Below, one piece after another: positions 16,670 through 32,378 of a stretch of 64,000 bases of DNA. The notes under the pieces are model-generated. The model made no database searches, was not told the DNA's origin, and saw only the letters and a list, made by a program, of their open reading frames with translations. Each line of letters starts with the position of its first letter. The first letter of the stretch is position 1. The stretch covers positions 951,459 through 1,015,458 of the forward strand of contig NZ_CP051185.1 of assembly GCF_012516315.1 (NCBI RefSeq). Reading direction: 5' to 3'. This DNA comes from Limnospira fusiformis SAG 85.79. Its GTDB lineage: Bacteria > Cyanobacteriota > Cyanobacteriia > Cyanobacteriales > Microcoleaceae. Both the position numbers and the translations under genes were made by a program.

Positions 16670-17582
16670 GTAGGGGTCGAAAGGAAAGTCACCTTTCCCA
16701 ACTCCCATTCAAAACCGTGCTTGATACTTTCACATCACACGGCTCCTGATGTGGATACCCTATTTTGTCAGTAGGAACAGGGTTACTACCCCCTGCTTTA
16801 TGACTTCAACTTTAGGAGCTATATACACCACGTAGTCTTTAAACTCGCTCACGGTCGTAAGCACTCTTACATCATCGCAGTCTCTATATCCACACCGTGA
16901 CTAGTGGGCATATCCCAACCATTACAGTTAGGCATTAGCTTTCAGTCACATCCTTTCCCCTTATGGGCATACGCTTACACTTTTCACTACTCCAGTGAGT
17001 AATATTGCTCACTTTCTTATATGGAGAGCCTAACAGGGGTTTCAACGTTCCGTATATATGGGCATTCCATCTTTAGATTTGTCCTATCCACCGGGGTACT
17101 TTTAAAGGTCTGTGAAGATGGCTAGTCAAGTCCTCTTCTTTTCCCCTTGTTCTTTTGAACACAGCGTGTCAACCTATTTCGCTACCTCGATATTACGATG
17201 GTTCAAGCCAGACATTCGGTTTCCCTAATCATGGATGGTTGGCAGTGGTCGGATTTTGGGAATGGGTTTTCCCTCACGCCTTCCGTTCCCCGCTTCAATC
17301 CCAGATTTGTGATTTCTGAAACTGGGGGTGGCTATCGCCTTTACTCTTTCCCATAATCACCCCAAGTGGGTTGAAATACTCCTCCTAAGTATACTTGGAC
17401 GGTATTTTGTGATTTCTTAAAATGGGATTGACCTTGAGTTCCCTGCCTTGCTTAGTGCAACAACTCACTAAACGTCGGGACATATATACAGTTAAGGGGT
17501 TAGACTGGTTGAAGGTCTAATTTTCCCTCTAGGAGGTTATTTCAGGCATTGCAGCCTTATTTCACTCCTAAACGTCTCGCAC
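16670..17582 (-). ncRNA. ORF-less group II intron, 913 nt
   Basis: On the minus strand the element starts GTGCGAG at 17582. Domain V is at 16712-16745: 34 nt starting GAGCC, with the AGC triad, a GAAA tetraloop and a two-base bulge, paired throughout. Domain VI follows, with a GGAAAG/CTTTCC stem and an A eight bases from the 3' end as candidate branch point, and the end is CCCCTAC at 16670. The seven bases before the 5' splice site (ATAGTCA) can pair with TGATTAT at 17353-17359, a good EBS1 candidate. There is no reverse transcriptase or maturase frame, so splicing would need a protein supplied in trans. It sits in the leader of the His-rich gene in sense orientation. Confidence 0.85.
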
Positions 17583-19896: not shown

Positions 19897-20085
19897 CCCT
19901 TGGCTTAGGTGAAAATACTAGCACTAACTGCTATAGGTTCTGGTTGGAGGACAATCCAATGCTCGAACTTTAAACCAACCCGCTAAGACCGTCTTGATCA
20001 CGTAAACCTCTTGGGAGCGTGGAAGCCCCGTGTCTTTAGACCGGGGAGGAAACGCGACAGGGGGACTTTAGTCCCCGTCAATCTT

Positions 20086-21357
20086 TCAAGCATAGGCGTA
20101 ACCATCCTTCCTGTGAATGGGTTGGCAGTATTTGTGGCTGATGCCTGCCACCCGTACCGAAGCGGTGGTAATATCAAAACTACCAGACGCACGGCAGAGA
20201 ACCCGTCCTAGATATGAGCCAATTTTCTTCCCCGCTGTGACCAGTGCCGTCACCATGTCGCCAGTCTGAAAGCCTTTATGAATTTGCCTCCTGGAGCGGT
20301 GACGATTCGGGAATCCGTACTTATTCGTCCCGCACATCTGACGGGTTCCATGCCCCTTTGCTAAAATCAGCAACGGTTTTGAAGTCAGAACTTCCAGTGA
20401 TTCGACTGGTCCAACACAGGCAGCATCAAGCCAGTGAGCTTTAGGTAGGTTGAGCCTCAGTCGATTGAACTTCGTTTGTCCGCCCGTTCCTGTGGTAACT
20501 GGGAGTCCTGTTGCTTTCAGAGCCTTGAACAAGGCCCATCGGGTCGAGTTAACGGCAGCCGCATCTTTAAGGGGTGATTTGGCCTGCCTGAGAAGACGAC
20601 TCAGGACATCAGGCTGGCCCGATAAAAAATCCCGAATGTCCCCATTGCCTTTGGCTTGATTGCATGAGTGGCAAGCCATCGTCAGGTTAGAAACCCGGTC
20701 AGAGCCACCCTTAGAGCGAGGCTGGATATGCTCAACTTCAAGTAGTACATTTTGAGCCCCACAGTAAGCACAGGTTCTGCCCCACTTTTCCAACAGGTAT
20801 TCCCTGATTTCATAGCCTTGTAATTCTCCCTGCTGATACTCAACACCTGAAATCTCAGGGTTTTCCATCAATTGCAGGTCGAACCGTACTAGCTCTTGGG
20901 TAATGCGGCCAACTGGGGCAAGTCTACGAAATCGGTGAACCCAGGTCATTAGAGTATCTACTCGATGCTGCCAGCTGGGAGCTAACCAACCTTCGGGACG
21001 AGTCCGATTCAAGAACCGAGCTGGTCGATATCGGGTCTTGCGGTTTCGTCGAGAACGTCGGAGTTGACGACGAGAGAGCAATGCTTCTTTAATCTGCTGT
21101 CCTCGGTGCTGCAACTCGGCAGCAAAGATAATATGATTCCCTTGCTTCAAGGCAATTCCAGTGACTTTAGAGCCTGGGTCTAATTTGAGTTCGAGGGGTT
21201 CAGGATTAGCGTCAACCTCCTTGTTTAGAATAATGGTGAATGGGTAGCGTCGAAATACCGATGCTTTCCCGGCTTTGAGCAGTGATCGTGCCATCCCTGG
21301 CTTGCACGGTGTCAGGGGCTTGCGGTTGGTATCTAAAACGAAAACATGGTTAGACAT
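20086..21357 (-). CDS. iscB: IscB RNA-guided endonuclease
   Basis: IscB is the ancestor-like relative of Cas9, an omega-RNA-guided DNA nickase/nuclease. Domains in order: PLMP (VFVLDTNRKPLTPC, KPGMARSLLKAGKASV), RuvC-I (LKLDPGSKVTGIAL, Asp60), Arg-rich bridge helix (RRQLRRSRRNRKTRYR), RuvC-II (ITQELVRFD), HNH with zinc cysteines (CAYCG, LEVEHIQPRSKGG, CHSCNQAKG), RuvC-III (HWLDAACVG), then a C-terminal domain (GTRQMCGTNKYGFP). All nuclease residues appear intact. The frame is open 14 codons further upstream, but ATG at 21357 (MSNHVFVLDT) is the family start, and the upstream sequence belongs to the omega-RNA. Target activity is inferred from family knowledge. Confidence 0.95.
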   Translation of the reverse strand: MSNHVFVLDTNRKPLTPCKPGMARSLLKAGKASVFRRYPFTIILNKEVDANPEPLELKLDPGSKVTGIALKQGNHIIFAAELQHRGQQIKEALLSRRQLRRSRRNRKTRYRPARFLNRTRPEGWLAPSWQHRVDTLMTWVHRFRRLAPVGRITQELVRFDLQLMENPEISGVEYQQGELQGYEIREYLLEKWGRTCAYCGAQNVLLEVEHIQPRSKGGSDRVSNLTMACHSCNQAKGNGDIRDFLSGQPDVLSRLLRQAKSPLKDAAAVNSTRWALFKALKATGLPVTTGTGGQTKFNRLRLNLPKAHWLDAACVGPVESLEVLTSKPLLILAKGHGTRQMCGTNKYGFPNRHRSRRQIHKGFQTGDMVTALVTAGKKIGSYLGRVLCRASGSFDITTASVRVAGISHKYCQPIHRKDGYAYA

Positions 21358-21603
21358 TGTTGCGTCTGTTCTGATTGCTCGTAACGTTTGCTTCGCCAAG
21401 GTTCAGAGTCGGTACTTTCCAAATCGCACTGTCTTAACCCCTTAGGACTGTTTAACGATTTGGTTCTAGTGCCTGGAACTAGCACGCATTCCAGGGTAGG
21501 AACTTTAACTCTTGCTCTGAACGTAGCCAGTTAAGGCTTAAGCTGGTCAGCTACCTGAAAGCGGGGGGCACGAAGCCCCCGTGCTTCAGCCGGGGGTGCT
21601 GAC
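21358..21603 (-). ncRNA. Omega-RNA scaffold upstream of iscB
   Basis: The segment directly 5' of iscB is about 90% identical to 30480-30698, with a common sharp end at 21603. It is rich in inverted repeats, including GGGGGC/GCCCCC around a short loop and ACTAGAACC/GGTTCTAGT-like arms. In IscB systems the guide is the stretch immediately 5' of the scaffold; here that is the reverse complement of 21604-21620 or so, which is the 3' flank of the small gene. Coordinates of the RNA ends are approximate on the iscB side. Confidence 0.8.
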
Positions 21604-30104: not shown

Positions 30105-30326
30105 TCTGGTTCATCCCCAAGGGCGAGCGACTGATTTAGGGCGGGTTGGGCATCTTCCCGGACCATGCCATCTCACTGTCCGGGATATAGGGCAGGGGTC
30201 AGGAGGAGTGGCGGAAGACGGAGTAGGGAAAAAAATTGTCGGTTTACTATTCCTATTCATCGGGTCTTTCCGAAAAACCAGTTTAACCGACCCCTACCAG
30301 GCGAGTTCGTGTGGCTTATCTGTCAC

Positions 30327-30698
30327 GTAAAACTCCTGGGAGGGTTGGAAGCTCCGTGATTGATCACGGAGAGGAAAACCGACTCAAGCGGCTGACCGCC
30401 GCCAGCACCCCCTTGCGGGGTGGAGGGGTATGGTTGCCCCTCCATGGAGCTATGGTTGGCTCCGACTCCCTTGCGGGGTAATGTTTGCTTCGCCAATGTT
30501 CAGAGTCGGTACTATCCAAATCGCACGTCCTTAACCCCTTAGAGATGTTTAACGATTCGGTTCTAGAGCCTGGAACTAGCACGCATTCCAGGGTAGGAAC
30601 TTTAACTCTTGCTCTGAACGGAGCCAGTTAAGGCTTAAGCTGGTCAGCTACCTGAAAGGGGGGCACGAAGCCCCCGTGCTTCAGCCGGGGGTGCTGAC
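30327..30698 (-). mobile_element. Miniature IscB-less omega-RNA element, 372 bp
   Basis: Both ends match the iscB element at 20002-21603: the left end after TCAC (30323-30326) with GTAAAACTCCTGGGAG, and the right end ending GGGGGTGCTGAC at 30698. The left hairpin is a perfect CTCCGTGAT, TG, ATCACGGAG (30352-30371); its bases differ from the first copy yet still pair. The whole iscB frame is missing, with about 110 bases of unrelated sequence in its place. This is a non-autonomous derivative whose main content is an omega-RNA. Confidence 0.85.
30480..30698 (-). ncRNA. Stand-alone omega-RNA (no iscB)
   Basis: About 90% identical to the omega-RNA upstream of iscB over 220 bases, with the hairpin arms kept, including GGGGGC/GCCCCC. 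Its boundary at 30698 is followed by different flanking sequence, so the putative guide differs. The scaffold would be expected to work in trans with the IscB encoded at 20086-21357. Expression is not shown by sequence. Confidence 0.75.
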
Positions 30699-31070
30699 TA
30701 CGATCTACCGGGCGTGAACCCGTCCCCACTGTCCCCGCGAATAAACCAACGGGGATTTTTAATTATATCCTACACAATGTGGTGCATTCTACCCCAAATA
30801 TTAGGTTAATTATAGGTTAGTCCTTGCTATTTATCCCATCCTCGATCGCCTACCCTGAAAAAACTTCGTTTTGCCCCTATTCCTATAGAATAGTCTCTAG
30901 CAGCGGCGGGTTTATGTGGCGGGGAGGCAGCGGGTCTATGTAGTTCATCTGTTACTGGGATCTACCGGGCGTGAACCCGCCCCTACAAATTACCATATAC
31001 CCCGTGAACCCGCACCTACTTATAATTAATTGGCAGCACGCAGCAGTAAACAGTTTCACAAGGTAACGCA
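30699..31070. repeat. Intergenic region with dispersed GTGAACCCGCCCC repeats
   Basis: Holds several copies of the family that includes GATCTACCGGGCGTGAACCC (30702 and 30959) and a possible small hairpin TCCCCG/CGGGGA followed by TTTTT near 30735-30765. The pdhA promoter should lie here. No coding frame is supported. Confidence 0.7.
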
Positions 31071-32102: not shown

Positions 32103-32378
32103 GGGATGGGTTGATACGCCACCCAATAGGGCGGGTTGATACGCCACCCAATAGGCGGGTTGATACGCCACCCAATAGGCGGGTTGATACGCCACCCAAT
32201 AGGGCGGGGGCGGGGGCGGGGGCGGGTTTATGTGACTGATCTGTTACTACCATATAGCCTGGTGAACCCGCCCCTACAGAAGACCCTGGTGAACCCGCCC
32301 CTACAGAAGACCCCGGTGAAACCGCCCCGACAGAAGACCCCGGTGAAACCGCCCCTAAAAGGCGAGTCGGTTGCTAAC
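32103..32378. repeat. Tandem repeats between pdhA and ackA
   Basis: First, four copies of GGGTTGATACGCCACCCAAT, then three GCGGGG-type units, then four copies of GGTGAACCCGCCCCTACAG-type with AAGACCC spacers. It ends at the convergent ackA stop. The small open frames across it are repeat-derived. Confidence 0.85.

Follow-up and report, generated by a model that had tools for sequence, protein, structure and literature searches.

The element at positions 30327-30698 (minus strand) of the window, by which we mean the whole 64,000-nucleotide stretch of Limnospira fusiformis DNA that was analysed, is very probably a non-autonomous IS200/IS605-type element that contains little beyond the gene of an IscB omega-RNA and is mobilised in trans, while a paralogous copy of its flank at 30959 is probably left uncut. 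The element is of a known type, an ordinary one, and its behaviour is standard for IS200/IS605-OMEGA elements. The main evidence comes from 40 aligned copies of the element family in the same genome and from the corresponding empty sites in a relative.

The solo element and its family

The genome, which is of the Arthrospira/Limnospira type, was found to contain 50 HEARO matches, including 40 complete elements. Thirty-one of these are solo elements of 371-401 nt and nine carry IscB and measure about 1600 nt. All 40 begin with GTCAGCACC and end with TTTAC. Beyond the 3' end the genomic bases read GTGA in 38 of 40 cases, ATGA in one and GTGG in one (position by position, G in 39, T in 40, G in 40 and A in 39 of the 40), and no consensus is present on the guide side. 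These elements thus insert precisely beside GTGA, which is TCAC on the plus strand. The preliminary description had placed the insertion just 3' of TTAC or TCAC, in the manner of IS200/IS605 elements; the 40 copies bear this out for TCAC, whereas the complement of TTAC, GTAA, adjoins none of them. HEARO elements reportedly insert beside RTGA, according to the 2009 discovery work of Weinberg. Since GTGA was derived from the insertion preference of the 40 copies, it is on that basis that we treat it as the presumed TAM; in IS200/IS605 elements the insertion preference usually, although not necessarily, equals the TAM.

As the ends are fixed by the 40 copies, and also by empty sites in the relative, the solo element of the window corresponds to 30327-30698. 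It is complete, has a length of 372 nt and reads 5'-GTCAGCACC...GGAGTTTTAC-3' on the minus strand, with no IscB ORF inside. Its ends are ambiguous by up to 2 nt because AC is common to both. On its left side it is adjoined by ATCTGTCAC, including the transposition target and presumed TAM at 30323-30326 (TCAC on the plus strand, GTGA on the minus strand), and the flanks, when joined in a script, give ATCTGTCAC-TACGATCTACCGGGCG. The omega-RNA scaffold (Rfam HEARO, RF02033) occupies 30478-30698 on the minus strand and is complete over positions 1-211 of the covariance model, with a score of 160.7 bits against a gathering score of 83. Given that the scaffold begins at 30698 on the minus strand, the guide is encoded from 30699 upwards on that strand, in a 24-nt flank directly 5' of the scaffold (30699-30722, CGGGTTCACGCCCGGTAGATCGTA). 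By analogy with OgeuIscB (PMC9640706), the last 16-17 nt of CGGGTTCACGCCCGGTAGATCGTA are expected to form the effective guide.

A sister element of 1602 nt, which carries IscB, is located at 20002-21603 on the minus strand and is followed directly by GTGA on that strand. Its uninterrupted ORF (20086-21399, minus strand, 437 aa) contains RuvC and HNH regions, matches the guided IscB family (NF040563, 474.6 bits) with RRXRR and HNH, and also matched IscB structures. The scaffold of this element (21381-21603, minus strand) is near-identical to the solo scaffold and scores 163.4 bits with the HEARO model, compared with 160.7 bits for the solo copy. The encoded protein, with both nuclease regions, is a candidate for the nuclease that serves the solo omega-RNA in trans, from 9 kb away. 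Y1 transposase genes are present in the genome, and the end of one TnpA/TnpB element resembles that of the IscB element, with 79% over 71 nt (E 2e-11). A search for a transposase element with HEARO ends found only this partial end similarity. Elsewhere in the window, a group II intron match (Rfam RF00029) lies at 16670-16747 on the minus strand.

Empty sites in a relative

For comparison we used Arthrospira sp. PCC 9108, one relative from the genus; the two flanks of each insertion were joined in a script and the junctions were aligned. A contig search with a 38-base flank pattern matched only this genome. An empty homologous site spanning the junction was found for 30 of the 40 insertions, and in 26 of these no indels are present near the junction. 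Three of the alignments within these counts are weak: L001 was counted as gap-free despite a gap further out, L003 relies on a short match for its empty site, and L022 was aligned through a local duplication, which makes its junction uncertain. The 26 gap-free empty junctions show that insertion is precise, without target duplication or loss, as is typical of IS200/IS605 elements. Among them, GTGA is present in 20, all 16 of 16 guide positions match in nine, and both features occur together in seven. This shows that an empty site consists of the scaffold-adjoining flank followed by GTGA and that every guide encodes the empty site of its own element; a guide matching the empty site beside the presumed TAM, as in OMEGA systems, is thus found at the level of the family. 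For the elements L003 and L057, the insertion sites appear to lie in CGGGTT...AACTC palindromic repeats, the arms of which can supply GTGA.

Both the solo and the IscB-carrying insertions of the window are absent from Arthrospira sp. PCC 9108. For the solo element, the homologous locus lacks the element and its left flank differs, apparently through a rearrangement among repeats. We considered this locus as a clean empty allele and rejected it, as its left half is rearranged; with this junction, an exact empty allele of the solo insertion was not seen at the PCC 9108 locus.

Could the solo elements be inactive relics, with an unused omega-RNA and a flank match that merely records the insertion? 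The absence of IscB from the solo element is in line with this, and in a transcriptome study of Limnospira indica HEARO RNAs are regarded, by assumption, as remnants left after mobility (PMC8400943). We nevertheless regard it as unlikely: the solo scaffold scores as high as the IscB-linked copy, the copies are near-identical, and the relative lacks 30 of the 40 insertions. The latter two observations argue that the spread was recent. Moreover, with solo elements making up 31 of the 40 complete ones and most missing from the relative, the data indicate a burst of non-autonomous copies that was recent and specific to this lineage.

The second copy of the flank

The preliminary description drew attention to 21 bases at 30702-30722 that recur exactly at 30959-30979. 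This is correct: both places read GATCTACCGGGCGTGAACCCG. Their common membership of one repeat family is the reason why the match exceeds chance. No other site in the window resembles GATCTACCGGGCGTGAACCCG at up to three mismatches (0 expected in shuffles), a 20-base core of it is confined to the same pair of sites within the genome of 6.42 Mb, and a genome-wide pattern search for the repeat at up to three mismatches returned two sites. The 21-mer had, however, been described as lying next to the scaffold boundary. In fact 30698 is the last position of the scaffold, and the three guide bases at 30699-30701 had been skipped; they read TAC, where the second copy has TGG. When the full guide is compared with the second copy (30956-30979, minus strand), 22 of 24 positions match, namely position 1 and positions 4-24, which leaves mismatches at the second and third positions counted from the motif. 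The motif position (30952-30955, minus strand) is occupied by GTAA, or TTAC on the plus strand. It follows that GTAACA is not directly after the 21-base match, as had been stated, since CCA lies between them. GTAACA does fit the NWRRNA pattern that had been invoked, but this pattern is loose and the fit is weak evidence, given that the 40 copies point to GTGA.

The target was also said to belong to a dispersed repeat family, and other uninterrupted copies could indeed be aligned. The family is palindromic (GGCGGGTT...ATCTGTNAC...GTGAACCCGCC), and the alignment shows the insertion position uninterrupted in other copies, including two more in the window, at 32239 and 33708, both reading ATCTGTTAC and then TACCATATA. 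The element interrupts one repeat copy, the right half of which (30697-30729, plus strand) pairs with 30954-30986 on the same strand at 88% identity; the latter is the matching part of an uninterrupted copy, in which ATCTGTTAC directly precedes the shared bases (ATCTGTTAC-TGGGATCTACCGGGCG). The copy at 30959, which the preliminary description took for an apparently empty copy of the insertion site, is a different locus, a paralogous member of the family and not the empty form of the solo insertion. The exact repeat arises because the element landed in one repeat copy with a second copy close by.

The exactness of the 21 bases may additionally have come from local gene conversion that, in this lineage, made the two repeat copies alike independently of the element, a process that is compatible with insertion by a trans-mobilised element and that we consider possible, at somewhat less than even probability. 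GATCTACC is common to both copies; in the relative, the first site reads CATATACC and the second holds a different repeat subtype. Against this, the comparison covers two genomes only, and most of the similarity follows from common descent within one repeat subtype: a further copy, at genome position 6070773, comes almost as near to the guide. This copy is the next best guide match among the copies read, with mismatches at positions 3 and 7 and, again, GTAA. At about 6.06 Mb, a tandem array of the same palindromic repeat, again uninterrupted at the insertion position, is located beside a Y1 transposase-like gene; in this region (L089, 6061515-6061748 with flanks), a 186-aa Y1 transposase-like ORF sits within tandem arrays with a spacing of about 82 bases, and the ORF and palindromic repeats bear a likeness to RAYTs with REP sequences.

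The guide had been proposed to target the empty site. The filled and empty pairs of the family support this for the element's own empty site, but not for the copy at 30959, which is a paralogue that combines two mismatches with GTAA in place of a perfect TAM-proximal match beside the family motif. Kato et al. reported that OgeuIscB no longer cleaves when mismatches fall at TAM-proximal positions 1-14 (PMC9640706). Because positions 2 and 3 lie inside this intolerant stretch, the site at 30956-30979 is not expected to be cut by the solo omega-RNA complex and probably is not. It is very unlikely that the omega-RNA recognises and cuts the 30959 copy despite its mismatches and that the element homes into paralogous repeat copies. 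The 22 of 24 matching positions and the fit of GTAACA to the loose NWRRNA pattern would agree with cutting, and for TnpB, ectopic integration where the flanks are homologous has been put forward (PMC8612924); yet the mismatches lie where OgeuIscB tolerates none (PMC9640706), GTAA adjoins 0 of 40 insertions, and the site is intact in the chromosome. We also noted that GTAA and seed mismatches are found in the repeat copies closest to the guide, and that GTGA persists at some copies in the relative, which lacks this insertion. That the guide exerts pressure on the repeat copies, with the solo omega-RNA shaping the dispersed family by self-targeting or occasional homing, is very unlikely, and the counts behind it are far too small for a test.

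Proposed cycle and relation to known systems

In IS200/IS605 biology, TnpA excises the element, the guided nuclease cuts the restored junction, and repair proceeds from the element-bearing copy. For the trans-mobilised solo element described here, a Y1 TnpA acting in trans would excise it and paste it 3' of TCAC. Its removal joins the guide-encoding flank directly to GTGA, as the empty homologous sites in the relative show for 30 of the 40 family members. IscB, also supplied in trans, would load the solo omega-RNA, and the complex could then cut a sister chromosome or an incoming allele carrying the flank-GTGA junction, after which repair would copy the element back. RNA-guided cleavage by the solo omega-RNA and IscB is what we infer. 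For TnpB, cutting of the restored junction and repair from the element-bearing copy have been proposed (PMC8612924), and a gene-drive effect has been described in plasmids (PMC11870625).

The closest known systems are the HEARO/IscB omega-RNA elements (IS200/IS605; ISC, OMEGA), with which the present family shares the Rfam HEARO scaffold, a guide that the flank supplies 5' of the scaffold, a motif beyond the opposite end of the element, precise insertion with no target duplication, and the coexistence of solo and IscB-carrying copies. Nothing essential differs; what is particular here is the apparently large and recent burst, mostly of solo copies. The TnpB elements ISDra2 and IS608 likewise take their guide from the right-end flank, use the TnpA target as TAM and have the donor joint as proposed cleavage target (PMC8612924). 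In contrast, TnpB has its guide at the 3' end of the RNA and its TAM 5' of the target, whereas IscB shows the mirror arrangement. OgeuIscB resembles the present IscB in its RuvC and HNH nuclease, 5' guide and 3' TAM with purines at positions 3 and 4, although its TAM is NNRR (PMC9640706), compared with the insertion motif GTGA, the presumed TAM here.

Taken together, 40 elements and 30 empty counterparts define, with no experiment needed, where the members of a cyanobacterial IscB family end and that their insertion motif is GTGA. They also provide natural guide-target pairs for asking whether IscB drives the retention of its elements, including solo omega-RNAs that would be served by IscB in trans.
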